Positions 9,555 to 52,660 of a stretch of DNA of 64,000 nucleotides are shown here, one piece after another. This DNA is from Liolophura sinensis. Taxonomy: Eukaryota > Mollusca > Polyplacophora > Chitonida > Chitonidae. The notes under the pieces are model-generated. The model searched no databases. It saw nothing but the letters and a program-made list of their open reading frames with translations, and had not been told where the DNA came from. Made by a program: the position numbers and the translations under genes. The DNA lies in NCBI RefSeq assembly GCF_032854445.1, contig NC_088301.1, positions 4,141,703 to 4,205,702 on the forward strand, given 5' to 3'. Every line of letters starts with the position of its first letter. The stretch's first letter is position 1.

Positions 9555-9675
9555 AGATCTTCCAGCAACCTGCTGTGGTATTCTCCCACCATTATGCTGG
9601 CCGCCGTTGTATAAGCGAAATATTCTAAGTACATGGCATAAATCACCTATCAAATAAATAAAGGAAATAAATAAA
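9555..9675. mobile_element. Foldback element F1, right-end remnant
   Basis: Contains ATTATGCTGGCCGCCGTTGT and ATAAGCGAAATATTCT, ending in AATAAATA-type sequence: the inverse of the F1 left end. Confidence 0.7.
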
Positions 9676-13150: not shown

Positions 13151-13474
13151 TTCAGAGTAGGTCCATGATATATGACGTCATTATCTCTCTGGATACTGCA
13201 TGAGTGACAGCCAAGATTGATGATACATCTCGTATTGGCATTTCTGGATTGTCTTGCGTGGAATTTTTGATGTTAGGTGGTGTGATTTTTTCTAGAACAT
13301 TCTCGGTAGTATCTATATAGCAGGGCTACCTATAATGCAAATGAGGCAGTGAAATGCAAACTAATTACACGAGTGCCGAAGAAAACCTCTTGATTTCCTG
13401 GAAGTGAATTTATTTCTTATGTGTCTTGATATTAAGGTCACAGAGCCGTCAGTTTCAGGGGTGGAAGAAGGGAG

Positions 13475-13565
13475 ACTGACTGGAGTAAGTATATGTATGT
13501 ATGGTTGGGGTTTTACGTGGTACTTAGCAAGTTTTCAGTCATGTGACAACGATGTGTGTGCGTCT
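13475..13565 (-). mobile_element. SINE tail fragment (duplicated at 17,990-18,070)
   Basis: Plus-strand TTTTACGTGGTACTTAGCAA and TTTCAGTCATGTGACAACGA are the inverse of the SINE tail. Present in both copies of the segmental duplication, so inserted before it. Confidence 0.55.
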
Positions 13566-13819
13566 GTCCGGAGTAAATCACTGACCTAAGGCAAATAACT
13601 TCTCTATATGTGAGTGACGGAGTTTGACTAGCAGATGGATATGAATGTCATATTCTTGATAGCAAGTGATCTCCAACGGACTTAAATGAGATCAGCTAGA
13701 CGGCCCTGCCGCCGCTGAGGACAGTTTAGTGTCCACAGGATTTCGAAAAGAGAAGAGGAAGTAGAATCTAGGAAATACCTTGTCCAAGTCTGGGAAAGTT
13801 TCGTGTGATTTAAGACTAA

Positions 13820-14620
13820 ACTTTTCTCATATACACATGTCACCTTGGATGAACCTTTCCTCATACACACACGTTACCTATGACTAGTTTAAACCTTTCA
13901 TTATACGCATGTTACTTGCGACAAACCTTTCTTCATACACACGTTACCTATGACTTGGTTAAACCTTTCCTCATACACACATGTTACCTGCGACGAGCCT
14001 TTCGTCATATACACATGTTACCTGTGACTAGTTTAAACCTTTCCTCATTCCTCATACGCATGTTACCTGCGACGAACCTTTTCCTCATATACGCATGTTA
14101 CCTACGACAAACCTTTGCTAATACCTATCACTAGTATAAACCTTTCATCATACACACATGTTACCTGCGACGAACCTTTCCTCATATGCGCATGTTACCT
14201 ATGACTTGTTTAAATCTTTCCTCATACAAACATGTTAGCCGCGACGAACCTTTCCTCATATACACATGTTACCTGCGACGAACCTTTCTTCATACACGCA
14301 TGTTACCTGCGACGAACCTTTCCTCATACACACACGTTACCTATGACTAGTTTAAACATTTCCTCATACCCATGTTACCTACGTTACCTATGACTTGATT
14401 AAACCTTTCCTCATACGCATGTTACCTGCGACGAACCTTTCCTCATACACACATTTTGCCTAAAACGAACCTTTCTTCATACATGCATGTTACCTAAGAC
14501 GAACCTTTCCTCATACAGGCATGTTACCTACGACTAACGTTTCCTCGTATACGCATGTTACCTATGACTAATGCTTCCTCAGATGATCCTGTTACTGATG
14601 ACTAGTCTTTCCTCATATAA
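13820..14620. repeat. Minisatellite derived from SULT exon 4 end (copy 1)
   Basis: Plus-strand words CCTTTCCTCATACACACATG and TTACCTGCGACGAA repeat at about 33-36 bases, with some double-length units containing GACTAGTTTAAA. On the minus strand each unit reads TATGAGGAAAGGTTCGTC, matching the end of gene A exon 4 and its donor. It abuts the broken exon 4 copy at 14,608. Confidence 0.9.
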
Positions 14621-14692
14621 GCAGGCACTCCACCACGCCAGTAGTTTTTCTCTTCCCCATCAAAACACGTGTCTTTAGCTGCTTTCAGGTTA
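14608..14692 (-). pseudogene. Partial copy of SULT gene A exon 4
   Basis: The minus strand codes for NLKAAKDTCFDGEEKNYWRG and on to AYMRK, nearly identical to the second half of gene A exon 4. The match stops at about 14,692 where unrelated dispersed-repeat sequence begins. The splice donor is lost (AAAG followed by ACTAGT rather than GTTAGT). It belongs to the duplicated segment 11.8-14.7 kb and has no exon 5 downstream, so it is a dead fragment. Confidence 0.85.
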
Positions 14693-16202: not shown

Positions 16203-16765
16203 TTTAGTTTAGGTATGCAGAAGAGTTAGATGTGCAGTGCAATTTAGGTTCAGTACAGTTTAGTTATACACTACAGTTTAGGTCTGCAGAAGAGTTTAGA
16301 TGTGCAATGTAATTTAGATTCAGTACAGTTTAGTTATACACTACAGTTTAGGTCTGCAGAAGAGTTAGATGTGCAATATAATTTAGATTCAGTACAGTTT
16401 AGTTATACACTACAGTTTAGGTATGCAGAAGAGTTAGATGTGCAGTGCAATTTAGGTTCAGTACAGTTTAGTTATACACTACAGTTTAGGTATGCAGAAG
16501 AGTTAGATGTGCAGTGCAATTTAGGTTCAGTACAGTTTAGTTATGCACTACAGTTTAGGTATGCAGAAGAGTTAGATGTGCAGTGCAATTTAGGTTCAGT
16601 ACAGTTTAGTTATACACTACAGTTTAGGTATGCAGAAGAGTTAGATGTGCAGTGCAATTTAGGTTCAGTACAGTTTAGTTATACACTACAGTTTAGGTAT
16701 GCAGAAGAGTTAGATGTGCAGTGCAATTTAGGTTCAGTACAGTTTAGTTATACAGTACATACAGA
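16203..16765. repeat. Minisatellite, 69-bp unit, about 8 copies
   Basis: Unit starts CAGTTTAGTTATACACTACA and contains TATGCAGAAGAGTTAGATG. Because 69 is divisible by three, one plus-strand frame (16,302-16,784) stays open with a 23-residue repeat. It lies downstream of the stop codon of gene A. Confidence 0.95.
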
Positions 16766-17406
16766 GTTCAGAGTAGGTACTTGATATATGACGTCATTAT
16801 CTGTATGGACACTTCTGTATGTGTGACAGCCAAGACTGGTGATACATCTCGTACATACAGCGACATCAAGCTTGCTGAATACCGGTATATCCTAAAATGA
16901 AACTTTAGAACTTATAATGTGACATTTCAGCTTATAACAAATATTGCCATCCAGCCTTTCAAACAGCTTGGTAGACTACATGTATAAAGTAAGATGTCGG
17001 CCCACGAGACATCTTATCAGCCAAGTAATGATAGGGTTTTAATGTAGCTTTCTGGTAAAAAAATGTAGCTTTTCATGTCAAAATGCTGAGCCTTAACGGT
17101 AAATACAATGTAGCATGCCAGTTTATGGTGTACACCTTCCCCGCAGCCGATAACGTAGCCTCTGACTTTCAATGAAGCCCCCTATAGCCTTAACAACTTA
17201 TATACATGTACATGCGTACATACAGAGACAGAAGCTCACATTTCTACCTAATTTTTCACCCATTTGTGAAAAAAACCATCTGGTTATATAAACAACATCG
17301 ATTTTCAGTTTTCCTGAAGGAAGCGGATACGTGCACTCGGACCTGTTTTCAGCACAGAGAATGTTACTTTAACATTTCCACGTGAAATCAAGGTGGCCTC
17401 TCCAAA

Positions 17407-17525
17407 TCAGCTGTCAAAGTCATATTTGAAGGTTATCTGGACATCTCGTAATTCAGAGGTAATTTTCTTGTCCCATTCTTCATTTTGCTGCACGGTAAAT
17501 GTGTTTTTCCAATCCCCAATGGTAC
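17407..17525 (-). CDS. SULT gene A coding exon 5 (C-terminus)
   Basis: Starts at acceptor TTGTAG|GTACC and ends at TGA. It codes for GTIGDWKNTFTV and the tail ending FKYDFDS. It contains the GDWKN PAPS-binding segment and an intact K...TV...E dimer motif. The matching exon is missing from the duplicated segment at 11.8-14.7 kb. Confidence 0.9.
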
Positions 17526-20500
17526 CTACAACCAAGAATTGTCCCAGTAATTTGGAATGATTCTTGATTTCACTAATTACCATAAGAAAAAGTGTATGCG
17601 GAGGAAAGAGAAGCTTTAATGATAGCATGCGTCTAGGCTGGGCCTTATTTACGCTAAATTACGAGAGTTACTGATGGGTCTCTACACTAGTTTTTACTTA
17701 AAATTGTCATTTCGCGATTGTCTTGCGTGAAATTCTTGAACTTCTATGATGTTAGGTGGAGTGTTTGTTTTCTAGAATATTCTCGGTAGTATCTATATAG
17801 TAGGCCTACCTAATATGCAAATGAGACAGTGAAATTCAAACTAAATACACGAGTGGCGAACACCCCCTTGATTTCCTAGAAGTGAATTTATTTCTTATGT
17901 GTCTTGATATTAACGTCACAGACAAATATTTGATTAATACCACCCAGGGCCATCAGTTTCATGGGTGGAAGAAGGGAGACTGACTGGAGTAAGTATATGT
18001 ATGTATGGTTGGGGTTTTACGTGGTACTTAGCAAGTTTTCAGTCATGTGACAACGATGTGTGTGCGTCTGTCCGGAGTAAATCACTGACCTAAGGCAAGT
18101 GACGGAGTTTGACTAGCAGATGGATATGAATGTCATATTCTAGATAGCAAGTGATCTCCAACGGACTTAAATGAGATCAGCTAAACGGCCCTGCCGCCGC
18201 TGAGGACAGTTTAGTGTCCACAAGATTTCGAAAACAGGGGAAGAAGTGGAATCTACAAAATACCATGTCCAAGTCTGGGAATGTTTCGTGTGATTTATGA
18301 CTAAACTCTTCTCATATACACATGTTACCTTCGACGAACCTTTCCTCATACACACGTTACCTTCGACGAACTTTCCTCGTACACACGTTACCTGCGACGA
18401 ACCTTTCCTTATATACACATGTTACCTATGACTAGTTTAAATCTTTCCTCATATACGCATGTTACTTATGACTAATGTTTCCTCATATACACATGTTGCT
18501 TATGAATAACGTTTCCTAATATACGCATGTTACTTATGACTAACGTTTCCTCATATACGCATGTTATCTTTGACTAACGTTTCCTCCTATGCGCATGTCA
18601 CTTATGACTAACGTTTCCTCATATATACGTGTTACCTATGACTAATGCTTCCTCATATGATCCTATTACTAATTACTAACCTTTTCTCATATAAGCAGGC
18701 ACTCCACCACGCCAGTAGCTTTTCTCTTCCTCATCAAAACACGTGTCTTTAGCTGCTTTCAGGTTTTTAAAGTTACATTTACGCTCTACTTCTTCATAAA
18801 ACTCATCCTTGTGGCTGACTCCGAGAAACTGAGCGAGGCGACGTACCTGGTGAGAGAAATCCTGGGAAAAAGAGACAAAAGAACAACTCAGCGAGGAATA
18901 AATGAAAAGTAAAGGAGAGAAAAGCTCACAACAATGATAAAAAACGAGAGAGAAACAATCAGTAAATGAGACCGCTACAGGAATATCAAACAATGAAGAG
19001 GCTACAGCAAAACCAAAAGTCAGACGAGGAAGATCGAAATACATGACAGACATATGATATGAAAGCGACAGACAAATAATAAGCAAAGCAATAATTAAGT
19101 GACAAATAAACGATAATCAGATAATATGAACAGACGCTAAACACGATAAAGAAAACAACAGATAAAGAATTAAGAAAACGACAGACACATTAAGCTTCCA
19201 TTCGTGATATTTCTTCGTTGTTTTGTTGGGATTTATATGTAATGATTATGCATTGAACAGGTATCGAATGCACTTGCGCTATTTTGAGGGTTGTAACGGT
19301 AAATGTCACATTCCAATTGGTACCTTGATTGCCAGGGGTAGTGTATGTAGAGAAAAGATTCACATGTTGTAAAGATACCTAGATGCATGCATTTAACAGC
19401 TCCTAATTGTATTTAGGCCTACCTTGCGGCTATCGAGAGCTTAGGTAGTCATTCAAACGGCAGAAATAGCCGCAGAATACCGGTACTGACAATGTGGAAG
19501 TTATCAGACGGCGGATACGCCATTTGACTTTGACCCTTTCGATCTCCGCAACCGCGTAAGTGCCAACAGGCTTATTATATCAAGTTTGTCATGGAATTTT
19601 GTGGAATGTGCTCTTAATAACATTTGCTATGTGATGGACATTTGGAGATAATTCTGAAAAAGATCGAAAAAATTTGACAGATTAGCTTGTTGTGAGTGTG
19701 TTTTGTTCAACTCATTTTCCCATTGCTTAAGCCTTTGGTGTCCGCAGCGTTGGCCAATCACTGCGAAACATTCACGTGATCGTTGAACCTCGCGGGTATT
19801 CTGTCCAGTAGGTAATGTTATTTGTCTGCGTGATAGGATCAGGTCATGATGAAATTAAAGTTTTACCAGGGCCAGTAGTTGTTGAGAAAAGCGTACAATG
19901 TAAGTGGTGGGAAGATTTGATTGTTAAAGTTTACATTAACAGTTGTATATAAATTAAGTGTTATGACGAACTAACATTGTTTGTATTAGGCGTAATGTTA
20001 CTTCGAAAACCTTTAGCTTTTGACACACGTACGTGTGGCCATAGCCTTGACAAACTCACAGTTCGAAAGTGAAACAGACACGTTCAAGATGGCGGATAGC
20101 CCTCGAAGTCGAGATGACATGCATTTTTACGTTTTCACTGCAATTCTGTACTTTAAGTTCGATACACATAAGTGAGATATCATGCTTGCAGACGACGAAC
20201 ACTGTAATGTTTTCCTTCCTTTACGAGCCAGAGCGATGTGTGTTTCAGAACCAGGTTTCAAGATGGCGGACTCGGATGTTTTTTCTTTTAGTTTGAAGCC
20301 AGGATTTCGTGTGGAGGACCAGTATCTATGATGTGGTGGTTCACGCTCCTTTTTCACAATTATAGATTTAGTACTCTGATGATCAACATTGAAACGATGG
20401 TTGAATATAATCTGTGATAAACATGCTTTTTTTAGTTTCTCTTCCGAATCTTTTCTAGGTGTTATCTCCCTTGATTAAAGTGTTGCACTCAATAGACCAA

Positions 20501-23500
20501 AGGTAGAAAGCAGTAAGCTGTTCCTAGGAAAAAAAGCGATGATGAAGACTTATTGATGACTAATTTTACGTTATCTTTAAATAGTCAGCATTTTTATTTC
20601 ATCTTATGCCAGAAAGTTTCAACATCTTGTTTTCCGCTGGGTTCTTGTTCATTTATATCAGCCTTTGTTTTGTTTTATGTTCTTGCTTACACGAATTTTT
20701 TTCTTACTGTTAAAAGTTAGAAGAAGAACAATAGACCCATTTCACAGCCTTTGTACTCTAGTTTTTATAGATTTTTTTTCAGGAGAATTTGGGATCACCT
20801 CTTGGTATATATCGTATTTGCATAATGATGTTCAGACTAAAGGCATGCATTTAGTTTGAATTATAATAATATTTATGAAGATATTAAAAATATAAATATG
20901 ATCAAAATCCAAGCTGAACACATTTTTAAATGAAAAGACAAAATTACAGAGCAAATATATTTCTTTAACATATTGATTTTATGTGACTTTTATGTTTTCT
21001 CCACCTTTGAATAAACTTGTCAATGACTCTTTTCAAGACATGACAAACTGACCAGATGTGTTCATCTCACCATCATCAAAGGTTCCTGAGTAACTTGCCA
21101 AAGATTGAAGGTTTATCCAGGTCAACCCAGTTTCCTTAAACCATAAAACTGTCCGTCACCGTAAAAGTGAAAAATTCCTGTGTGTGTCCTTAACCAACAA
21201 TGAAATAAAATAAAAAAATAAATCAACTGCACGACATGTGGATAAGGGGACATCGATGCGATAAGGGTTGAATTGTGAAACGACATGTTCCTTTATGCCC
21301 TAATGTCTGGTGTCATGAAAGACAGCTGAGCATTTCTAATACACGGAGATCTCAACTCCAAGATACATTTAATGACGCTGCCCCTTAAACCCCTCCATCC
21401 CCTAAAGATTTCAGTGTACCATGCAGTTAACTCACTATTTTTAGATCCTCAAATCGAAGATGGAAGATTTGGAGGTCATTTCGGCTCTGAATAAGCTTGT
21501 CCCACCTTTTAATGTTCTCAAACCAACTGCCGTACATCACTGAAACACAAACCCAATAGCCATATTATTACATAAAATAATTACATTATTAAACGGGGAA
21601 AACTTGCGCACGTCTCATATCATACGTCACACAAGAGTTGAACTTCAGACCTGTCTTTACTGACCAAGATTTGGGTGAATTATTTACATTATCATCTACA
21701 CAATTAAAACTGAGAAGTAGATAATTGTTTTCAGTTTACGAACATGATATGCCAGAGAACACCACAAGGAGTAAATACTTGTAATAACTGCAGATAAAAG
21801 TATTGACAGATACATCCATGTACCGGACTGACCTTTACAAAGGTCTACAAAGATATGCAAGTCTACACCTGTTATAAATGCATGGACCGAAATCTATAGA
21901 ACAGTTTAACTACTCGTGTATATTACGTGGCCACTTTATTCAACACAATGCTCGTTTTGTCTTTTGATGAGAAAGACTGAATCTACGTATAAACATGAAG
22001 ACATGCAGGTGGTACAAAATACAACAAGGGTTTGGAGAATTTGTTAACAAAACGCGATATTTTATAGTGCGTTTCCCACAAAACAGGGGGAAAAGGAGAA
22101 ATACAATATTTCAATGCAAAACAATAAATGAATAAATAAATAAATAAAAAAGATAAAAGAAGAAAACAAACAAAATAACAAGAAATAATGGGGTGACAAG
22201 GCCGTCCCGCCATACAGCTGCTCGTGGCAACTAAAAAACATATTTGAATGGTATCATAGAGATAAATGTGGAAATAAATATTCCGACGACAAAGACGATA
22301 AAAGACACCATTTGCCACTTTATTATACCTGTAATGTGCTAATCACTTGTGACAAAAAAGAAAAATACAAATCTAGGTGATAGCGTTTTCCTTATTAAAA
22401 GGGCAGCTGTTACAACAATATCTGATTTTTGGGGAGATGCAATGTGGCGGTCGGGGTTAGGGAGTTGGAGGGGGAGGGGAGGCAGAAAAAGGGGAGATAA
22501 CCTGGTGCCAAATCATGCTATGAATATGGAAAACACGGCATTACCGAGGATTTCCATTCCAAGTATCAGACTTGACATCTGATCAACTATGCATGGGGAT
22601 GGTCGATGCTCGAAAGCTGCTTGGATCGAAGGAACAATCTGAACCCTTAATTGGGATGGCGAACAGGGCAAGTCAAGGCGATGGTTTCCATGATTAAAGC
22701 TTAAAGAAGAATCACACAGATACAAGCAAATTTCAGGATTGAGCGCTTGAAATGGCCATCACGACGGTGGGGCTTGGAGGACCGAAGTATTAGCAGAATA
22801 CTGGCTGTTACAACCACGTATTACAAGTGCACAAAAGCCACACTAACGGGATGCTATCGCAGCTCTGATGTGATAACAAGACTATTAAAGGGCTTACTTG
22901 TATTACTTTTGTTCTGATTGTCTTTATTTATTTATTTGATTGGCGCCGTACACAAGAATATTACACTTATACGACGGCGTCCAGTTTTATGGTGGGAGAA
23001 CACCCGTCACAGCAAGGGGTAAACCCACGACCATCCGCAGGTTGCGACAGACCTTCCTACGTACCGCCGGAGAGGAAGCCAGCATGAGCTGGCTATGCTT
23101 GTCTGTAATGAAGTCCAATTTATTGCAGGCTGCCGTCGTATAAGTGAAATATTCTTGTGTATGGCGTAAAACACCAATCAAATAAATAAGTAAATATTCA
23201 GAATGCCTGACATAACAGAAACAGATTATCTGCACAATGGAAATGGCGAAGGAACTGGATCTAGTTCCGTGAGAAAACTTCTAACTATGACGTGCACATG
23301 CTAGGCACGGGTTCAGTACCGGCAGTGGAGTGGGCATTTTTACGCTTCCCCACTCTCATTGGTCATGGGGGCATTGTTGACCATTAACAGCTGTCCAGAA
23401 GCTTGCGCAGTCTTGGGTTTGCTGACGACTATTTTTCTTCCACGAATATGCTGTAGAAGTCTCAAAATCACACGTGAGAGCGTTTGCCAGTGATCTCCCT

Positions 23501-26500
23501 AGCTTCCACATCAGAGAACTTTTAAAACTCACTTTGCCAATCAGCGTAACATGAGACCTAGTAAACCTTACTGTAACCGTATTACCGCGAGATCTTGTAA
23601 AGCTTACTACAAAACCAGTAAAGTCCGGTTCAGTGTCATTTTTCCTCAGTTAGGTTTTTCTATACTTAAATTGCAGCACTTTAGAAGCTCCCTCGATCCA
23701 CTGTTTAAGCAGAATTAGGTAGATACTTAAAATTTTGCGCTGTGATCACCTTTAACATACAATGAGAACAGAACATTGCTACAAGGATTAAACCTCGGGG
23801 ATGATAGTCCACCAGCGGAATCCTGGTTTATGAAGGAATAAAATATAAAGGATCTTGTGAAAGCTTGTAATGCTCCCGTAACACGGGATCAAATAAAACT
23901 TACTTTGTTACCAAAACGTAAGATCTTATAAAGTTTAAAGTGACGATGTCCTTGAAACATGAAACATTATAAACCTTACTCTGTCCACATAGCATGAGAT
24001 TTTGTAAAACTTACTTTCTCCCCACAACATGAGATCTTGTAAAACTGACCTTCTCCCAGTAACATGAGATCTTGTAAAACTGACAATCTCCCAGTAACAT
24101 GAGATCTTGTAAAACTCACCTTCTCCCAGTAACATGAGATCTTGTAAAACTCACCTTCTTCCCACAACATGAGATCTTGGAAAACTGACCTTCTCCCAGT
24201 AACATGAGATCTTGTAAAACTCGCCTTCTCCCAATAACATGAGATCTTGTAAAACTCACCTTCTCTCCGTAACATGAGATCTTGTAAGACTCACCTTCTA
24301 CTCGTAACATTAGATCTTGTAAAACTCACCTTCTCCCAATAACATGACGTCTTGAAAAACTTACCTTCTACCCGTAACATGAGATCTTGTAAGTCTTACC
24401 TTCTTCACGTAGAATCAGATCTTGTAAGACTGACCTTTTCCCCGTGGGATGAGATGTTGTGAAACTCACCTTCTTCCCGTAACATAAGGTCTTGCAAAAA
24501 CTTAAGTAACTACGTCCCCGTAACATGAAACATTATAAACCTTACTCTGTCCACATAGCATGAGATTTTGTAAAACTTACTTTCTCCCCGTAACATGAGA
24601 TCTTGAAAGCCGTCCCAGCTTCCCTGGTAATCGGAAAGCAGGTCGCTGCTGACGAAATGAAACATGGAGACGGCCACATCTTTCGGGTTTCGGGAGAGGT
24701 AAAGCATCTTACAGCCCTTTTCCACAAACCCCTGGGGGAGATGCTCCAGATCCAGGTGCGTGTTAAGGACCCGGGGGGACGGGAGTTGATTCAGGTGGGT
24801 CAAATCCCGATATTCCAACATAAACTCGATCTTAGCCTGTTTGGAATTCTCGGCGAGCCCCGTCAGCAGCATGGTAACAACCTCCCATACCCAGTTCGTG
24901 CCTGAAATAATATACATCATCAGAAAACACTCACTGGAATACCTGAAATGATTTGCCCTTTCTGAAATACCAGAACGACTCTCATGACGGTGTTTTGTAC
25001 TCCGGTGTTAAGTGATAGGATCGTGCACGTTCCTCAGTATGGGAGGAAACAAATTTAACGAGAAAGAATTAAGCAAACTTCTGTGACAAAATACAGCCAG
25101 AGAATTTCTGGGTAAGTCTGGTGTAAGCCGATATAAGCTGTTCCGATAACAACACTTTCATGAATAACTACCAGGCTAATTATCATAGACTTGATAAGGA
25201 AACACTAAAAATAAACCCAGCCAGTATGAAATTAGAATCACTAAAACGATATAAACAGATAAAATTCACCAGAGTTGATTTTCTCCGAATAAAGCTCTAG
25301 TTAAAATACCACGTTTTGCTTCTGTGGTAAACACTATACGCGACAGAGGTAAACGAAACAGCTGGTCTAAAATGTCTTTACATAAGTCTTTACATGATCT
25401 AAATACATTAAACAGATACGGAATCTCTGAATATTTCACTAAATTATTGGTGGTCAGTTTTGAAAAGCGGTCGGAGTGAAAAAAAGCCCTTGCCCCCCTA
25501 AACCATTGACCTTTGGCAAGTAGGTGACGAATATTACCACGTATGACACTCACGTTTTTACGCGCAGAGCGAGTTCAAGGCGGGTTCCATATGATAGGTA
25601 GGCACTGAACTTCATATAAGACCATATATACGGCTTGACAATCGCTGACGGCCACAGAGCTAAACCCGAGAACAGGAATTTCCCTGCCCAAGGCTAGGAT
25701 TGAACCAACGCCACATGTATCCTAGGCTTGACCACAACCCATCTCGTATATGGTATAGATGAATCTCGTACATGGTATAGATGAATCTCGTACATAGTAT
25801 GGATAAATCTCGTACATGGTATAGATGAATCTCGTACATGGTATAGATGAATTCGTACATGGTACAGATGAATCTCGTACATGGTATAGGTGAATCTCGT
25901 ACATGGTATGAATAAATCTCGTACATGTTATAGAAGAATAACTAACAGTAATGTTTTGCAATCTGCGGATGGTCGTGGGCTGGCCGCCGTCGTATAAGTG
26001 AAATAATCTTGAGTACGCCGTAAAAGACCAATGAGATAAATAAATATTAGGGAAAAGGGGACTTGTGGAAAAGGACTAGGGGTAAGGGGCCTTGTGGATA
26101 AAGATTATAGAGTAAAGGCACTTTGTGGATAAAGACTAGGGGTAGGGACCCTTAATTGTGGATAAAGACTAGGGGTAAGGATCCTTAATTCTGGATAAGG
26201 GCTAGGGGTAAGGGGCCTTGTGCATAAAGACTAGGGGTAGCGACCCTAAATTGTGGATAAAGGCTAGGGGTAGAGACCCTTAATTGTGGATAAGGCCTAG
26301 GGGTAAGGGGCCTTGTGCATGAAGACTAGGTGTGGTTAAGAGACCTACCTGACCTCGGGTATCCACATATCAGAACGTCATCGGAGCGGACCTCTAGATC
26401 GTGCAGACGGCTAACTTTCTCGGCGATGTCCGGCACATAGGGCAGGTACTCCCCCTTGTATTCCACCACCCTTAGGTTGGCCCCATGTTTATCAGCTAGC

Positions 26501-26514
26501 CTCTTCTCAGCCAT
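17407..26514 (-). CDS. SULT gene A: cytosolic sulfotransferase, five coding exons, intact
   Basis: Predicted PAPS-dependent cytosolic sulfotransferase (Sulfotransfer_1 family), which moves a sulfonate group from PAPS to a hydroxyl or amine of a small molecule; the substrate cannot be predicted. Exons on the minus strand: 26514-26349, 24901-24581, 21539-21436, 18861-18681 and 17525-17407. They total 891 bases, or 296 codons plus TGA, close to the usual ~295 residues, and the exon phases agree at every junction. Visible motifs: PAPS loop GYPRSGTNW (residues 51-59), catalytic His in SPRVLNTHL (His104), 3'-phosphate motif SRNPKDVAVS (Arg126, Ser134), RKGTIGDWKN (256-265) and the dimer motif K...TV...E (Lys264 to Glu273). 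The loop Lys is replaced by Arg54. No signal peptide or membrane segment is seen, as expected for a cytosolic SULT. Introns 1, 2 and 4 begin with minisatellites. It is the most downstream member of a cluster of three genes in the same direction. Confidence 0.9.
18300..18665. repeat. Minisatellite, 34-bp unit, derived from the exon 4/intron 4 junction of gene A
   Basis: About 11 units; on the minus strand TATATGAGGAAACGTTAGTC is the common core. Compare exon 4's end: TATATGAGAAAAG|GTTAGT. The array begins at the donor itself and runs into intron 4. Confidence 0.92.
18681..18861 (-). CDS. SULT gene A coding exon 4
   Basis: A 181-base exon from acceptor TTTCCCAG|GATTTC to donor GAAAAG|GTTAGT. 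It codes for the helical region starting DFSHQVRRLAQFLGV and ending YWRGGVPAYMRK. The exon end (TATATGAGAAAAG plus the donor) is the seed of the minisatellite at 18,300-18,665. A damaged second copy of this exon lies at 14,608-14,692. Confidence 0.9.
20080..20275 (+). promoter_or_regulatory. Two CAAGATGGCGGA motifs (YY1-like) in intron 3 of gene A
   Basis: TTCAAGATGGCGGATAGC near 20,085 and TTTCAAGATGGCGGACTC near 20,258 match the AAGATGGCGG form of YY1 sites often seen just downstream of start sites. No first exon is recognised nearby, so a role as promoter is speculative. Confidence 0.25.
20770..20965. repeat. Dispersed repeat D2, copy 3
   Basis: GGATCACCTCTTGGTATATA, GCATAATGATGTTCAGA and ATGATCAAAATCCAAGCTGA match the second half of copy 1. 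In intron 3 of gene A. Confidence 0.72.
21436..21539 (-). CDS. SULT gene A coding exon 3
   Basis: A 104-base exon from acceptor TGTTTCAG|TGATG to donor AAAATA|GTGAGT. It codes for MYGSWFENIKRW and, near its end, FHLRFEDLKI, matching the YGSW...GW and YYE(D/S)LK segments of the family. Its length is identical to exon 3 of gene B. Together with the single leftover base of exon 2 it gives exactly 35 codons. Confidence 0.87.
22453..22478 (+). other. G-quadruplex-like motif in intron 2 of gene A
   Basis: Four G runs: GGGG, GGG, GGGGG and GGGG, separated by TTA, AGTTGGA and A, fitting G3+N1-7. On the template strand of gene A transcription. Formation is not shown by sequence alone. Confidence 0.5.
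22925..23197. mobile_element. Foldback element, family F1, complete copy
   Basis: Starts TTTATTTGATTGGCGCCGTA and continues ACACTTATACGACGGCG; ends with the inverse (GCCGTCGTATAAGTGAAATA ... CACCAATCAAATAAATA). The ~60-base terminal inverted repeats flank a core with CCACGACCATCCGCAGGTTG and GGAGAGGAAGCCAGCATGAG. It lies in intron 2 of gene A. No coding capacity. Confidence 0.82.
23470..24610. repeat. Minisatellite, 35-bp unit, derived from the exon 2/intron 2 junction of gene A
   Basis: The clean part is 23,985-24,605 (about 17 units); decayed units reach back to 23,470. On the minus strand a unit contains GGGAGAAGGTGAGTTTTAC and AAGATCTCATGTTACT. The true exon end reads AAGATCTCATGTTACGGGGA then GAAA|GTAAGT. 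About ten units keep a GTGAG or GTAAG donor. The segment 23,945-24,030 is nearly the same as 24,520-24,605, showing a larger-scale duplication within the array. Confidence 0.93.
24581..24901 (-). CDS. SULT gene A coding exon 2
   Basis: Runs from acceptor ATTTCAG|GCACG to donor GAGAAA|GTAAGT, 321 bases, phase 1 at both ends. It codes for the second half of the PAPS loop (GTNWVWE), the catalytic His104 and the SRNPKDVAVS 3'-phosphate site. Its last ~20 coding bases and the donor are the source sequence of the adjoining 35-bp minisatellite, so the exact donor used is uncertain. Confidence 0.88.
24902..25737 (-). other. Intron 1 of SULT gene A, non-array part
   Basis: Unique sequence with a D4-like fragment near 25,500 (ACCTTTGGCAAGTAGGTGAC). 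A 95-codon minus-strand frame (25,553-25,266) has no recognisable motif. Confidence 0.65.
25738..25935. repeat. Minisatellite, 22-bp unit, 9 copies, in intron 1 of gene A
   Basis: Unit GAATCTCGTACATGGTATAG plus AT, with small changes. Several short minus-strand open frames reading MYEIHLYHVRD come only from this array. Confidence 0.95.
25965..26045. mobile_element. Foldback element F1, right-end remnant in intron 1 of gene A
   Basis: GCGGATGGTCGTGGGCTGGC, then CGTCGTATAAGTGAAATAAT and CCGTAAAAGACCAATGAGAT, ending in ATAAATA. It stands between the 22-bp and ~30-bp arrays. Confidence 0.72.
26050..26345. repeat. Minisatellite, ~30-bp unit, abutting the exon 1 donor of gene A
   Basis: Plus-strand words AAAGACTAGGGGTAAGG and CCTTGTGGAT or CCTTAATTGTGGAT, nine or so units of slightly variable length. 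The last unit ends at the donor GTAGGT (26,343-26,348), and the minus-strand GGTCTCT...CCTAG of the intron start recurs in the units. Confidence 0.85.
26349..26514 (-). CDS. SULT gene A coding exon 1
   Basis: Codes for residues 1-55 plus the first base of Gly56, starting MAEKRLADKHGANLRV and ending CGYPRS. The donor is TCAG|GTAGGT. An upstream ATG at 26,598 is in frame, but the chosen ATG fits the N-terminus position of gene B. A weak acceptor-like TTGAAG lies 8 bases before the ATG, so this may be the second exon of the transcript. Confidence 0.85.
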
Positions 26515-27254
26515 GACTCGATCTTCAAGTGTAAGTGATAGAGTGTCAACACAAACCTGTACCAGCTCTTCAGTGTGTTTGTAAGGGTTTATGTACACTT
26601 GTATACCGCAGTCACCTATGACCTTTTACCTGTATAAAATCTAACCTACATCTAGTGCAATGACATGATAGAGTGAAATGCAGCATGATACTATATATCG
26701 GCAAGCCGGCACAGCTAGACTATTCAGTGACATGACATCGTCAATATCTCGATCGCTATACATAGATATACACTTCAACACATACCGCTAGTCCAGATTC
26801 TGTCCAAACACCTATGAGTTTAATCTATTTGGTAAGACATATAACTGTAAAGGCAGGAATTTTTGTGTGCATACACTGAGGAAACGCTGTGAAATGACTA
26901 CTACATGTAAGAGACATAACATTTACACCGTGCAAATCCCATCACGCCAACAAATATGAATTTTTTCTCAGCGAGCACCGCACAAGCTGTCATAAAATGT
27001 CACAGATGTACATCAGAAGGGTTCACTTAAACATACAAAAACTTCCAAAACATGTTATATACCCACGGCAATTTGACGATGGACGCATAAGGTAGGACGG
27101 TTTACGAATTCCATCGGCTGTCAGTGTATACAATTGTATGTGACGGTGTCAGGATAACAGCATTCATCGTTGATTTTAAGTATGAATTACCTCCTAATCC
27201 GACAAAATGAACGATCGTAAATTTCTAAACTGTTAACTGTTATTCGTGATTTTT

Positions 27255-29870: not shown

Positions 29871-30040
29871 TAATTTAAATATTTGATTGGTGTTTTACGC
29901 CGCACTCAAGAGTATTTCACTTATACGATGGGGGCCAGAAAAGCGGACAGAGCCCGGGAGAAACCTACAACCATCCGCCGGCTGCTAGCAGACCTTCCCA
30001 CGTACGACCGAAGAGAAAGTCAGCATTAGCTGGACTTAAG
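29870..30040. mobile_element. Foldback element F1, left half
   Basis: ATTTGATTGGTGTTTTACGC, then CACTTATACGATGGGGGCC, then the core words CAGAGCCCGGGAGAAACC and CAGACCTTCCCACGTACG. The right inverted end is missing. Confidence 0.8.
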
Positions 30041-34969: not shown

Positions 34970-35066
34970 CGGGTTTCTTCCCATCATAATGGTGGCCATA
35001 ATGCTATAAGTGAAATTTTCGAGTATGGCGTAAAAGACCAATCAAATAAATAAATGAATAAATATT
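34970..35066. mobile_element. Foldback element F1, right-end remnant
   Basis: CATCATAATGGTGGCCATAA, then TAAGTGAAATTTTCGAGTAT and CCAATCAAATAAATAAATG. It directly follows a SINE remnant. Confidence 0.72.
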
Positions 35067-36639: not shown

Positions 36640-38860
36640 CGTGTACAAATCATCATTACTGATCATGGCACTGTAGGACTAAATAAATTGATAAAACAGT
36701 TATGTGAACTATCATCACTGGTCATGACACTGCTAGACTAAATGATTGATAGAACAGTTATGTGAATTATCATTACCCTCGATAATCATTACTCTCCATG
36801 ACACTGCTAGACTAAATGAATTGATAAAACAGTTATGTGAATTATCACCACTGGTCATGACACTGCTAGACTAAATGAATTGATAAAACAGTTATGTGAA
36901 TTATAATCACTGGTCATGACACTGCTAGACTAAATGAATTTCTAAAACAGTTATGTGAATTATAGTCACTGGTCATGACACTGCTAGACTATATGAATTG
37001 ATAAAACAGTTATGCGAACTATCATCACTGGTCACTGCTAGGCTAAATGAATTTATAAAACAGTTATGTGAATTATAATCACTGGCCATGACACTGCTAG
37101 ACTAAATGAATTTATAAAACAGTTATGTGAATTATAATCACTTTTCATTACACTGCTAGACTAAATAAATTTATAAAACAGTTATGTGAATTATCATCAC
37201 TGGTCATGACACTGCTAGACTAAATAAATTTATAAAACAGTTATGTGAATTATCATCACTGGTCATGACACTGCTAGACTAAATGAATTTATAAACAGTA
37301 ATGTGAATTATCATCACTGGTCATGACACTGCTAGGCTAAATGAACTGATAAAACAGTTATGTGAATTATAATCACTGGTCATGACACTGCTAGACTAAA
37401 TGAATTGATAAAACAGTTATGTGAATTATAATCAAGGCCATGACACTGCTAGGCTAAATGAATTGATAAAACAGTTATGTGAATTATAATCACTGGCCAT
37501 GACACTGCTAGTCTAAATGAATTGATAAAACAGTTATGTGAATTATAATTACTGGTCATGACACTGCTAGACTAAATAAATTTATAAAACAGTTATGTAA
37601 ATTATAATCACTGGTCATGACACTGCTAGACTAAATGAATTGATAAAACAGTTATGTGAATTATAATCACGGCCATGACACTGCTAGGCTAAATGAATTG
37701 ATAAAACAGTTATGTGAATTATAATTACTGGTCATGACACTGCTAGACTAAATGAATTGATAAAACAGTTATGTGAATTATCATCACTGGTCATGACACT
37801 GCTAGACTAAATGAATTGATAAAACAGTTATGTGAATTATCATCACTGGTCATGACACTGCTAGACTAAATGAATTGATAAAACAGTTATGTGAACTATC
37901 ATCACTGGTCACTGCTAGGCTAAATGAATTTATAAAACAGTTATGTGAATTATAATCACTGGTCATGACACTGCTAGACTAAATGAATTGATAAAACAGT
38001 TATGTGAATTATCACCACTGGTCATGACACTGCTAGACTAAATGAATTGATAAAACAGTTATGTGAATTATAATCACGGCCATGACACTGCTAGACTAAA
38101 TGAATTGATAAAACAGTTATGTGAACTATCATCACTGGTCACTGCTAGGCTAAATGAATTTATAAAACAGTTATGTGAATTATAATCACTGGTCATGACA
38201 CTGCTAGACTAAATGAATTGATAAAACAGTTATGTGAATTATCACCACTGGTCATGACACTGCTAGACTAAATGAATTTCTAAAACAGTTATGTGAATTA
38301 TAATCACTGGTCATGACACTGCTAGACTAAATGAATTGATAAAACAGTTATGTGAATTATAGTCACTGGTCATGACACTGCTAGACTACATGAATTGATA
38401 AAACAGTTATGTGAATTATAATCACTGGTCATGACACTGCTAGACCAAATAAATTTATACAACAGTTATGTGAATTATCATCACTGGTCACTGCTAGACT
38501 AAATGAATTGATAAAAAAGTTATGTGAATTATCATCACTGTCATGACACTGCTAGACTAAATGAATTTATAAACAGTAATGTGAATTATCATCACTGGTC
38601 ATGACACTGCTAGGCTAAATGAATTTCTAAAACAGTTATGTGAATTATCACCACTGGTCATGACACTGCTGGACTAAATGAATTGATAAAACAGTTATGT
38701 GAATTCTCATCACTGGTCATGACACTGCTGGACTAAATGAATTGATAAAACAGTTATGTGAATTCTCATCACTGGTCATGACACTGCTAGGCTAAATGAA
38801 TTGATAAAACAGTTATGTGAATTCTCATCACTGGTCATGACACTGCTAGGCTACTCTCCC
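36640..38860. repeat. Minisatellite, 59-bp unit, about 37 copies
   Basis: Unit starts CTGCTAGACTAAATGAATTG and contains AAACAGTTATGTGAATTAT and CACTGGTCATGACA. The period is 59 (for example 37,801 and 37,860). Runs of several units are themselves repeated, for example around 37,900 and 38,140. It lies between the end of gene B and the 5' side of gene A. Confidence 0.95.
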
Positions 38861-39138: not shown

Positions 39139-42100
39139 CTGAAATGATGACAAGCCAAACAATTCATTGATAAGAGATTCGTTGATATTGATATACATGT
39201 ACACGCAATATGAAGGCACGTACTATGAAGGCACGTACTATGAAGACACGTACTATGAAGACACGCAATGTGAAGACACGCAATGTGAAGACATGCAAAG
39301 GCGTCAACAAACAGCATTTTAATATTTTATGTATTGCCCATAGATGACCACATTTTAAGAAATTCGACTTTTAAGTTTGGTAGGCCTGCAGAAATTAGCC
39401 CCGAGGCGTGCATTTTTGTAATTTGTGGTAGGTGTGAACATTCTGTGCCTATACAGCATTTTGCTATCTCATCGTGCATCCGTACGTCAACAGCATACAC
39501 TCAAACAACTGTATAGGATCAGCGGACACTTTCACAAAACCTCGTTAATCAATCTTTCGTAACTTTTCTCGAAGATGACGTCGCCTTATGGTACTTTAAC
39601 CTGGACAACGTCTTTTACGAAAAAAGTTACGCAGAATGTGACTGACGAAGTTTTGTGAAAGTGAACCCAGCCTTTTTGTTGCTCACATCGCTCTATTTGA
39701 CATAACGGTAGAAAGTTATTTGTTAACGGCGCATTAAGCTCATTCTTGATGGTAGTAATTTTTGGTAACGTTGGTACCTTATTTGTTATTGATAGCAGGC
39801 TAATTGATCTTCGTTTTTGTGCCTTTTGTATTTGTCACTGATTTTACTCTAGTTGGTGATTTTTCCGATATTTGATAGTTGCACCGCTTTTAATGGATGT
39901 ATCATATTTGCATTCAGCGGTAGTCCGTTGGTTTGTGGCGATATCATATTTTACTCCTGTGGTGCCCATTTGTCATTGGCGGTACCCCACTCGTTAAAGG
40001 CTACCTCACTTGTTATTGAAGTACTTCATCCGTTATAGGTTACTTCACCTGGTACTGGTGGTACTTCACTCGTTATAGGCTACCTCATCTGGTATTGGCC
40101 ATATCCCACTCGTTATAGGCTACTTCACGGGGTATTGGCGGTAATTTATTCGTTATAGGCTACTTCAAGGGGTATTGGCGATACTTTACTCGTTAAAGGC
40201 TACTTCACCTGGTATTGGCGATACTTAACTCGTTAAAGGCTACTTCACCTGGTATTGGCGGTACTTTATTCGTTATAGCTTACCTGGTATTGGCGGTACT
40301 TCACTCGTTATATGCTACCTCACCTGGTATTAGCGGTACCCCACTTGTTAAAGGCCACTTCACCCGGTATTGGCGGTACTTCATTCGTTATAGGCTATTT
40401 CACTAGGTATTGGCGGTACTTCATTGGTTATAGGTTACTTCGCCTGGTATTGGCGATACTTCACTCGTTATAGGCTATTTCACTAGGTATTGGCGGTACC
40501 CCACTCGTTAAAGGCCACTTCACCTGGTATTGCCGGTACTTTATTCGTTATAAGTTACTTCACCTGGTATTGGCGGTACCCCACTCGTTATAGGCTACCT
40601 CACTTGTTATTGAAGTACTTCATTCTTTATAGGTTACTTCACCTGGTACTGGTGGTACTTCACTCGTTATAGGCTACCTCATCTGGTATTGGCGATATCC
40701 CACTCGTTATAGGCTACTTCACGGGGTATTGGCGGTACTTCATTCGTTATAGGCTTTTTCACTAGGTATTGGCAGTACTTCATTCGCTGTAAGCCACTTC
40801 ACCTGGTATTGGCGGTACTTCATTCGTTATAGGCTATTTCACTAGGTATTGGCGGTACTTCATTCGTTATAGGCCACTTCACCTGGTATTAGCGGTACTT
40901 CATTCGTTATAGGTTACTTCACCTGGTATTGGCGGTACTTCACTCGTTATAGGCTATTTCACTAGGTATTGGCGGTACTTCATTCGTTATAGGCCACTTC
41001 ACCTGGTATTGCTGGTACTTTATTCGTTATAAGTTACTTCACCTGGTATTGGCGGTACCCCACTCGTTATAGGCTACCTCACTTGTTATTGAAGTACTCC
41101 ATTCTTTATAGGTTACTTCACCTGGTACTGGTGGTACTTCACTCGTTATAGGCTACCTCATCTGGTATTGGCGATATCCCACTCGTTATAGGCTACTTCA
41201 CGGGCTATTGGAGGTACTTTACTCGTTATAAGCTACTTCAAGGGGTATTGGCGATACTTTACTCGTTATAGGCTACTTCACCTGGTATTGGCGATACTTA
41301 ACTCGTTAAAGGCTACTTCACCTGGTATTGGCGGTACTTTATTCGTTATAGGTTACCTGGTATTGGTGGTACCTCACTCGTTATATGCTACTTCATCTGG
41401 TATTAGCTGTACCCCACTCGTTATAGGCCACTTCACCTGGTTTTGGCGGTACTTCATTCGTTATAGGCTATTTCACTAGGTATTGGCGGTACTTCATTTG
41501 TTATAGGCCACTTCATCTGGTATTGGCGGTACTTCATTCGTTATAGGTTACTTCACCTGGTATTGGCGATACTTAACTCGGTAACCTGGTATTGGTGGTA
41601 CTTTATTCGTTATAGGTTACCTGGTATTGGCGGTACTTCACTCGTTATATGCTACCTTACCTGGTATTAGCGGTACCCCACTCGTTATAGGCCACTTCAC
41701 GTGATATTGGCGGTACTTCATTCGTTATAGGTTACTTCACCTGGTATTGGCGGTACTTTATTCGTTATAGGCCACTTCACCTGGTATTGGCGGTACTTCA
41801 CTCGTTATATGCTACCTCACCTGGTATTGGCGGTGCTTCACTTGTTATAGGCCACTTACATGCTACCTCACCTGGTATTAGTGGTACTTCACTCGTTATG
41901 CGGCACTTCGCCTGGTATTGGTGGTACTTCACTTGTTATAGGCTACTTCACTTGGTATTGGTGGTACTTCACTTTTTATGGGCTACTTCACTTGTTATAG
42001 GCCACTTCACCTGGTATTGGTGGTACTTCGCTCGTTACACGGTACTTCTCCTGGTATTGGTGATACTTCACTTGTTATAGGCTACTTCACTTGATATTGG

Positions 42101-45100
42101 TGGTACTTCACTTGTTATAGGCTACTTCACTTGATATTGGTGGTACTTCACTTTTTATGGGCTACTTCACTTGGTTTTGGTGACACTTCACCTGGTATTG
42201 GTGGTACTCCACTCGTTATAGGCTACTTCACTTGATATTGGTGGTACTTCACTTGTTACAGGGTATTTCACTTGGTATTGGTGGTACTTCACTTGTTACG
42301 GGCTACTTCACTTGTTATAGGCCACTTCACCTGGTATTGGTGGTACTTCACTCGTTACACGGTACTTCTCCTGGTATTAGTGATACTTCACTTGTTATAG
42401 GCTACTTTACTTGATATTGGTGGTATTTCACTTGTTATAGGGTACTTCACCTGGTATTGGTGGTACTTCACTTTTTATGGGCTACTTCACTTGGTTTTGG
42501 TGACACTTCACCTGGTATTGGTGGTACTCCACTCGTTAAAGGCTACTTCACTTGATATTGGTGGTACTTCACATGTTATAGGGTACTTCACTTGGTATTG
42601 GTGGTACTTCACTTGTTACGGGCTACTTCACTTGTTATAGGCCACTTCACCTGGTATTGGTGGTACTTCACTTGTTATACGCTACTTCACTTGGTATTGG
42701 CGGTACTTCACTCGTTATAGGCTACCTCACCTGGTATTGGTGGTACTCCACTTTTTATGGGTTACTTCACCTGGTATTGCCAGTACTCTACTCGTTATAG
42801 GCTACCTCACCTGGTATTGGCGGTACTTCACTCGTTATAGGCTACTTCACCTGGTATTGGCGTTGCTTCACTCGTTATAGTCTATTTCACGTGGTATTGG
42901 CGGTACTTCACTCGTTATAGGCTACTTCACCTGGTTTTGACGGTACTTCACTCGTTACACGCTACCTCACCTTGTATGGATGATACTTCACTTGTTATAG
43001 GCTACTTCGCCTGGTATTGGTGTTACTTCTCTCGTTATAGGCTACTTCACCTGGTATTGGCGGTACTTAACTCGTTATAGGTTACTTCACCTGGTATTGG
43101 TGTTGCTTCACTCGCTATAGGCTACTTCACCTTGTATTGGCGGTACTTCACTCGTTATAGGCTACTTCACCCGGTATTGGCGGTACTCCACTCATTATAG
43201 GTTACTTCACCTGGTATTGGCCTTGTTTCACTCGTTATGGGCTACTTCACCTGGTATTGGCGGTACTTCACTCGTTATAGGCTACTTCACCTGGTATTGG
43301 CGGTACTTCACTCGTTATAGGCTACTTCACCTGGTATTGGCGGTACTTCACTCGTTATAGGCTACTTCACCTGGTATTGGCGGTACTTCACTCGTTACAC
43401 GCTACCTCACCTGGTATGGATGATACTCCACTTGTTATAGGTTACTTCACCTGGTATTGGTGTTGCTTCACTCGTTATGGGCTACTTCACCTGGTTTTGA
43501 CGGTACTTAACTCGTTATAGGTTACTTCACCTGGTATTGGTGTTGCTTCACTCGTTATAGGCTACTTCACCTGGTTTTGACGGTACTTCACTCGTTATAG
43601 GTTACTTCACCTGGTATTGGTGTTGCTTCACTCGTTATAGGCTACTTCACCTGGTTTTGACGGTACTTCACTCGTTATACGCTATCTCACCTGATATGGA
43701 TGATACTCCACAAGTTACAGGCTACTTCACCTGGTATTGGCAGTACTCTACTTGTTGTAGGCTACTTCACCTGTTATTGGCAGTACTCCACTCGTTATAG
43801 GCTACTTCACCTGGTATTGGCGGTACTTCACTCGTTATACGCTATCTCACCTGGTATGGATGATACTCCACTCGTTATAAGCTACCTCACTTGTTACTGG
43901 CGGTCCCTCACTCGTTATAGGCTACTTCACCTGGTATTGGCGGTACTTCACTCGTTATAAGCTACCTCACCTGGTATGGATGATACTTTACAGGCTACTT
44001 CAGCTGGTATTGGCAGTACTTCACTCGCTATAGGCTGCTTCACCTGGTATTGGCGGTATTTCACTCGTTATACGCTATCTCACCTGGTATGGATGATACT
44101 CCACAAGTTACAGGCTACTTCACCTGGTTTTGGCAGTACTCTACTTGTTGTAGGCTACTTCACCTGTTATTGGCAGTACTCCACTCGTTATAGGCTACTT
44201 CACCTGGTATTGGCTGTACTTCACTCGTTATACGCTATCTCACCTGGTATGGATGATACTCCACACGTTACAGGCTACTTCACCTGGTATTGGCAGTACT
44301 CTACTTGTTGTAGGCTACTTCACCTGTTATTGGCAGTACTCCACTCGTTATAAGCTACCTCACCTGGTATTGCCAGTACTCTACTCGTTATAAGCTATCT
44401 CACTCGCTATTGGCGATAACCTGTTTGTTGATGGCTGTGCCACAACTGTTTACTGTTGTTACCATATTTATTAATGATGTACTCTTTTTGTTAGCACAGT
44501 ATCATATTTGTTTAGGGCAGTAAGCAATTTATAAATAGCGGCACCACATTTGTACACCAAATTGTTATGAGCGGCACCTCACTTGTTTTTGACGGCATTT
44601 TATTTACTAGTGGCTGTGCCCTAATTCTTGAAAGGAAGGACAATTCAGACCAAATGTATATGAATACATCGAAAAAATACCCAACATAAAGTATAAAAAG
44701 AATAACTCTTTTTTTTGTAATGCTCGAAACCACCGCCATGTCATCAATTGCAACCAATCATGCGCGAGTTATTTTTATAACCCAAGAGCGCACGTGTTTC
44801 CGCTGACACACAGCTTTGCTTTTTGACCATATGAGCGTGTGGTAAAAGTGACGTCACGTCGTGTTTCCGGTTTCTCTAGCAAGGCGTATCCCATGACGTA
44901 GTAAGAATTCCAAATTAAAAGCTGATTTACATCAAACACGCCAGAACAAAATGGATGTGGTCGTTTTGGTTTGTTTCCACCCCTCTTCTAGAGTAAATAC
45001 GTTATACTGTTTGTTGTTTTTTCTTTTCATGGTAGCACCTTATTTTTGTTTTAATTCCGATACCAAATTTTTAACGACTGTAACATATTTAATAACAACT

Positions 45101-52599: not shown

Positions 52600-52660
52600 A
52601 TATTTATTTATTTTATTTTGATTGGTGTTTTACGACGTACTCAAGAATATTTCACTTATT
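52600..52660. mobile_element. Foldback element F1, left-end remnant
   Basis: TTTTGATTGGTGTTTTACGA, then CGTACTCAAGAATATTTCAC. It is cut off where the 33-bp repeats of the 11-residue open frame begin, so that array may have grown inside the element. Confidence 0.75.

Follow-up and report, generated by a model that had tools for sequence, protein, structure and literature searches.

A minisatellite at a splice donor of a chiton sulfotransferase gene, with probable counterparts elsewhere in the genome

A sulfotransferase gene with a minisatellite at its second donor

We analysed a stretch of 64,000 nucleotides from the chiton Liolophura sinensis (assembly GCF_032854445.1, contig NC_088301.1, positions 4,141,703 to 4,205,702), here referred to as the window. 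On its minus strand lies a sulfotransferase (SULT) gene, gene A, that carries a 35-bp minisatellite at the 5' splice site of its second intron. Gene A is intact, as its five joined exons are open up to the terminal stop. The joined coding sequence (CDS) holds ..YPRSG|TNW.. and ..RKG|TIGDWKN.., which we take to be sulfotransferase motifs. Exon 2 matched the profile PF00685 at E 1.1e-20, the match covering residues 4-116 of a 117-residue query whose first residues precede the acceptor, and exon 4 matched profile positions 167-225 at E 2.7e-4, slightly below the cut-off. A search of the same genome with PF00685 gave 85 matches, counted per exon. A phase-1 GT at the equivalent exon 2 end was seen by eye in 17 of the 18 SULT loci fetched and in a second SULT gene of the window, gene B; L006 was the sole locus among the 18 where it was not seen. 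The exons of gene A and the parts of the array, all on the minus strand, are listed below, the repeat having been delimited with Tandem Repeats Finder (TRF).

26349-26625, minus strand: exon 1 of gene A, open part, ending in ..GYPRSG (joined CDS)
24581-24901, minus strand: exon 2 of gene A, with borders tttcag|GC..GAGAAA|gtaagt; the final 25 nt form the array's founding copy
24579-24580, minus strand: putative authentic 5' splice site of intron 2, AAA|GTAAGT, placed by phase and open frame
23851-24605, minus strand: 35-bp minisatellite, made up of the exon copy, 19 units that align and one or two of lower quality (TRF and wraparound alignments)
24119-24469, minus strand: region holding eight decoy donors, each predicted to pair with U1 more strongly than the authentic site does (duplex energies)
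23514-23608, minus strand: detached degenerate units past the array, at 23514-23535, 23545-23572 and 23581-23608 (repeat-finding families D3 and D4)
21436-21539, minus strand: exon 3 of gene A, to which exon 2 is joined, starting tttcag|TGATGTACG
18681-18861, minus strand: exon 4 of gene A (PF00685), ending in TATATGAGAAAAG|GTTAGT; its last 13 nt are probably the seed of a second donor array
17407-17525, minus strand: final coding exon of gene A with the stop (RKG|TIGDWKN.., joined CDS)

TRF called the array at 23993-24605, with a period of 35, 17.3 copies and 79% matches. A wraparound alignment placed the exon copy at 24605-24571, followed by 19 units with starts from 24570 to 23928, and a laxer alignment extended the array to about 23851. 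An earlier note, made from the letters of this DNA, had given the span as 23470-24610, of which the right edge was correct and the left edge, 23470, generous. Each unit combines 25 nt of the end of exon 2 with 10 nt of intron including the donor; the exonic part of the founding copy is 24605-24581 and its donor GT is at 24580. Exon positions -25 to -4 are identical to the TRF consensus at 22 of 22 positions, against 11 of 22 for the best of 278 upstream windows. They agree with a slightly different second consensus at 21 of 22, and individual units agree with these 22 nt at 14 to 21 positions. The note had derived the array from the end of exon 2 and its donor, and the alignment of unit to exon, with a similarity far above chance, upholds this origin.

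The genome, searched as 609,464,459 nt in 632 contigs, contains 12 matches to the 24-mer of the exon end with up to three mismatches, all of them inside the intron 2 array of gene A, and none to the same 24-mer read backwards. With the array DNA as query, no match except the array itself was found in a search that omits very common words; runs of N and the skipped words limit both of these uniqueness searches. As these searches showed no second locus, we rejected the idea that the unit derives from a dispersed repeat.

Decoy donors and the reading frame

In the donor column of the 19 units, GT is kept in 17, GTRAG in 12 and MAGGTRAGT in seven. This agrees with the row of decoy donors described in the earlier note, which had counted about ten in some 17 units. 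The form AAA|GTAAGT stands at both ends of the array (24580; 24014 and 23903), and the centre carries AAG|GTGAGT. The native site has a predicted U1 duplex energy of -5.6 kcal/mol, against -9.5 to -10.7 kcal/mol for eight decoys (24469, 24399, 24364, 24329, 24294, 24259, 24154 and 24119), calculated with what we take to be the sequence of the U1 5' end.

Successive donors were expected to shift the frame, and they do so, as 35 leaves a remainder of 2 when divided by three. When exon 2 was extended to a donor of the array and joined to exon 3, all 15 decoys tested, a set that leaves out five further donor-column sites, led to a premature stop. Counted from exon 2, the stop falls at codon 119 for one decoy and at codon 130 for the other 14.

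A probable second donor array and other repeats of the window

Two further features on the minus strand concern exon 4.

18296-18693, minus strand: second, probably donor-born minisatellite with 11.7 copies of a 34-bp unit, which overlaps the exon 4 end (TRF, position)
13234-14691, minus strand: partial copy of the exon 4 end and of intron 4, carrying a longer array of its own (blastn; TRF rows between 13814 and 14623)

The 34-bp array starts at the end of exon 4, and a second array of gene A was probably born at this donor. The exonic part matches the unit at 9 of 10 positions and the best upstream window at 8 of 10, which is far weaker than at exon 2, so this case leans mainly on position and register. 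The duplicate aligned with the gene at 80% over 17703-18697 and at 81% over 18303-18765. Its exon end is similar and its array longer, which suggests that the exon 4 array is older than the duplication and has changed in length since; between these two partial duplicates only, the lengths are 398 bp (at 18296) and about 810 bp (at 13814). Intron 1 also contains a minisatellite (26063-26330, minus strand), whose TRF row begins about 18 nt past the donor at 26348 and whose unit includes neither exon end nor donor. Three of the four introns of gene A thus have an array at the donor or within 20 nt of it.

The window as a whole (1-64000) is rich in minisatellites, with 61 TRF rows, overlapping rows representing the same arrays. 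These include a 2-kb array with 59/407-bp periods at 36797-38853, a 4.4-kb array at 39975-44415 and a 69-bp (23-codon) array at 16206-16759, which lies inside an open frame of 178 aa (16248-16784, plus strand). A short dispersed element, which to us resembles a molluscan SINE (short interspersed nuclear element), occurs in both orientations at 22922-23004, 23124-23196, 25979-26046, 29873-29938, 35005-35060, 52600-52659 and 9577-9669. Its copies at 22922 and 23124 lie within intron 2 and are mutually inverted.

Donor-motif arrays recur in the genome

Triplets of the donor motif MAGGTRAGT with gaps of 6-36 occur 970 times in the genome, against 190 for the reversed motif, and those with gaps of 41-71 occur 1472 against 343 times. 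Single motifs number 33,494 and 24,251, respectively. The acceptor motif TTTTYCAGR forms 208 triplets, against 63 for its reverse, from 55,200 and 25,796 single motifs. Per 1000 single motifs, this amounts to 29.0 triplets for the donor, 7.8 for the reversed donor, 3.8 for the acceptor and 2.4 for the reversed acceptor, where triplet matches that belong to the same array do not count as independent. A count of distinct arrays by eye on C1:0-26.4 Mb gave 13 for the donor, three for the reversed donor and one for the acceptor. Given the single-motif counts, donor and reversed donor differ at p 0.047 and donor and acceptor at p 2.9e-5. Acceptor-motif arrays at C4:4385579, C4:4844224, C6:1758260 and C9:4586444 start with TTTTCCAGGY(C/A)CAA or a similar sequence and are perhaps related.

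We sampled 26 donor arrays, all on C1: 13 (L019-L031) from the first 100 places of the list with gaps of 6-36 and 13 (L045-L057) from the first 100 places of that with gaps of 41-71. Profile or structure-sequence searches covered reading frames from 18 of them; the eight without a submitted frame were chosen by eye (L022, L023, L024, L029, L051, L053, L054 and L056). In 11 of the 26, the exon before the first donor is supported by homology at E<1e-3, a value to which no correction for multiple searches was applied:

L019: ankyrin, E 7e-18
L026: fucosidase, E 2.7e-4, below the cut-off
L027: iron-hydrogenase-like, E 3.1e-13
L030: RPC1, E 2.4e-8
L031: GH31, E 2.5e-13
L045: DUF3535, E 7e-6, just below the cut-off
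L046: OGDH, E 1.8e-19
L047: ABCC, E 3.1e-16
L048: choline transporter, E 1.1e-13
L049: BMS1, E 2.1e-27
L055: xylosidase-like, E 2.7e-4, far below the cut-off

In eight of these (L019, L027, L030, L031 and L045-L048), the exonic part matches the unit well above the upstream windows. In L049, where the TRF row begins 139 nt past the donor, a short exonic part gave 8/13 against 9/13 upstream, and a re-rotated, longer unit gave 44/59 with the next best at 23/59. L055 gave 36/53, a match without a control, and L026 gave no match above upstream (4/10 against 8/10). A constant share of exon and intron in the units was dropped after a look by eye, the cases having been selected for exon match. No homology-supported exon was found at the first donor of the other 15 arrays (L020-L025, L028, L029, L050-L054, L056 and L057). 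Of these, L021 resembles polycystin-2 at E 0.05 only and L051 has no qualifying TRF row, while L052 and L053 (C1:49.74 and 49.78 Mb) are inverted copies, about 38 kb apart, of one locus with a 26-bp donor-motif array.

The most extended case is L027 (C1:5469000-5475500), in which a 3.8-kb array of about 94 copies (94.5) of exon end and donor follows the iron-hydrogenase-like exon, presumably of a CIAO3-like gene. Downstream of the native donor lie 67 GT sites with the same U1 energy. In the RPC1, GH31 and ABCC-like genes the native donor is weaker than those of the array, these arrays having been picked for perfect donors.

As a control, 13 arrays of the reversed motif (L032-L044) were scanned on both sides and strands, and frames from L032, L041, L043 and L044 were submitted. 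The control set gave one donor-side case (L044, matrixin, 7.8e-20), in which the exonic part did not match the unit above upstream (12/23 against 14/23), and one acceptor-side case (L041, I-set, 1.9e-6); as the donor and control sets were handled differently, their fractions are not closely comparable. In L041, at about 1340-1700 on the plus strand, the units carry ..TATTCAG|TC.. and the last unit runs into the immunoglobulin-domain exon.

Conservation of the nine donor columns was compared with that of the rest of the unit in 15 arrays, 12 of which had been picked for intact donors, the exceptions being the two arrays of gene A and L044. The donor columns were better conserved in 11 of the 15, and GT alone in eight. 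In the two arrays of gene A they were slightly less conserved (0.830 v 0.858; 0.867 v 0.872). The G of GT is often altered in long arrays (19/45 units in L024, 17/67 in L026, 25/93 in L027 and 14/67 in L028), and the neighbouring donor bases are mostly unchanged where it varies. Either a single disarmed variant that has spread or selection acting against decoys could explain this frequent change of G.

Origin of the array

Tandem repeats across exon-intron boundaries are known from amphioxus as mirages, in Adh3, the globins, TnC and PGBD5 (PMC3087553, PMC3902484). The intron 2 array shares several of their features. Its unit spans an exon-intron boundary, 35 bp (like the 34 bp at exon 4) is of minisatellite size, and the splice signals are kept in many units but not in all. 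The genome also has both 5' and 3' boundaries affected, the latter in one acceptor-side case, the immunoglobulin exon of L041. We consider it highly probable that the array is a mirage minisatellite, which arose by duplication across the donor, was tolerated, expanded and was homogenised.

As the anatomy suggests, a tandem duplication of the last 25 nt of exon 2 and about 10 nt of intron would have set a second exon end and donor downstream of the first. The duplicate would have been tolerated, because the first donor still made a correct mRNA, and slippage or unequal exchange may then have enlarged the array into the intron. Purifying selection would hold the exon copy constant while the middle of the array was homogenised to the better-donor variant AAG|GTGAGT and the far end decayed. 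Because the native form stands at both ends and AAG|GTGAGT in the centre, the stronger form probably arose within the array and then spread, the edges being old and the centre homogenised. The spliceosome would have to choose the weaker, exon-proximal donor, as the tested decoys are predicted to yield a truncated frame, and the array is likely to cause a waste product from time to time. Exon 4 of gene A and other genes of this genome have probably undergone the same process.

Several points weigh against this account. The evidence comes from the genome of one species. At none of 19 other SULT exon-2 junctions read does a TRF array start within 100 nt of the exon, which makes the event rare per junction; among these junctions, the array is specific to gene A. 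GT sites stronger than the native one also occur in intron 2 outside the array: 2309 nt contain eight at -6 kcal/mol or better and the array's 731 nt contain 12, so the native donor is weak regardless of the array. The use of the first donor is suggested by phase, open frame and homology, and a selected role of the decoys is neither supported nor excluded by column conservation.

Near identity of exon and unit gives no direction by itself, and an unrelated minisatellite might have extended into the exon or, by conversion, have taken the place of the exon's end. We regard this as extremely unlikely, since the exon end is ordinary SULT sequence and the two uniqueness searches did not find the unit elsewhere in the genome; that exon 2 fits the SULT profile and its junction shares the phase of the paralogs points to the exon as the source. 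The birth of a new intron by tandem AG/GT duplication (the Rogers model, named in PMC3087553) was rejected, the phase-1 GT being common to 17 of 18 SULT loci and gene B. It is also improbable that the array serves regulated poison splicing, in which strong decoys competing with a weak authentic donor would determine, by way of premature stops and nonsense-mediated decay, how much productive SULT mRNA is made, with array length as the tuning device. The gap in U1 energy, the stops reached by every decoy tested and the better conserved donor columns in 11 of 15 arrays, most of them picked for intact donors, all fit such a role. However, the arrays of gene A itself lack this conservation, and the weaker native donors of the RPC1, GH31 and ABCC-like genes, whose arrays were picked for perfect donors, are what drift predicts. 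Amphioxus mirages, moreover, are reported to leave regular splicing undisturbed (PMC3087553).

Compatible with the mirage origin is the idea that donor motifs are mutational hot spots for the birth of arrays, either driven by sequence or linked to transcription or splicing, which would address why donors are involved. The excess of donor triplets over the reversed and acceptor motifs favours it, as survival of tolerated arrays alone should stay within the neutral baseline. Yet the triplets are not independent, distinct arrays on C1:0-26.4 Mb number 13 for the donor against 3 for its reverse (p 0.047), genic regions may be rich in arrays anyway, and a permanent exon copy may keep arrays recognisable for longer. 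We hold a hot spot to be rather unlikely. A broader statement can be advanced only tentatively and may well go too far: that minisatellites of this chiton arise preferentially at 5' splice sites, several-fold per motif over the composition-matched control or acceptors, and that many genes, essential ones included, are correctly spliced past tens of equal or stronger copies, so that the donor is chosen by position or exon definition and not by strength.

Relation to known donor repeats

Our findings add a mollusc to the lancelets as hosts of mirage minisatellites and suggest that such arrays are common in it. At every array, a native 5' splice site is followed by copies whose predicted U1 pairing is as strong or stronger, so that these loci serve as natural tests of how the site is chosen. 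Gene annotation may place exon ends wrongly at such loci. In the literature searched, whose coverage leaves out most subscription journals, we found no molluscan or genome-wide report of such arrays among the papers listed, and PMC7931591 had no bearing on the question.

The kind of repeat is already known. The original description of amphioxus mirages is reportedly that of Canestro in 2002. The mirage units of Adh3 measure 10-72 bp and apparently do not disturb splicing (PMC3087553). Human IFI6 (6-16) has a minisatellite with multiple splice donors, in which two downstream units reportedly serve as donors, giving three mRNAs (Turri 1995, as cited in PMC4526556). The earlier note's view that minisatellites rarely arise exactly from the end of a coding exon is not supported, given these two systems and the recurrence in the chiton genome. 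What is new here is the probable second array at exon 4 and the genome-wide recurrence.

Compared with the amphioxus mirages, the host is a mollusc, copy number reaches 94.5 in L027, one gene probably has two arrays, recurrence was measured genome-wide by motif and the authentic donor is weaker than its copies. As in IFI6, the repeat of gene A sits at the donor of exon 2 and provides more than one donor. An IFI6-type exon would give open alternative isoforms from its downstream units, whereas all 15 decoys tested in gene A give stops. In human segmental duplicates, internal tandem repeats at exon-intron boundaries, with units of 30 bp on average, can create introns (PMC2812944). The array of gene A is likewise minisatellite-like and lies at an exon-intron boundary; unlike those new introns, however, intron 2 of gene A is old and common to the paralogs.

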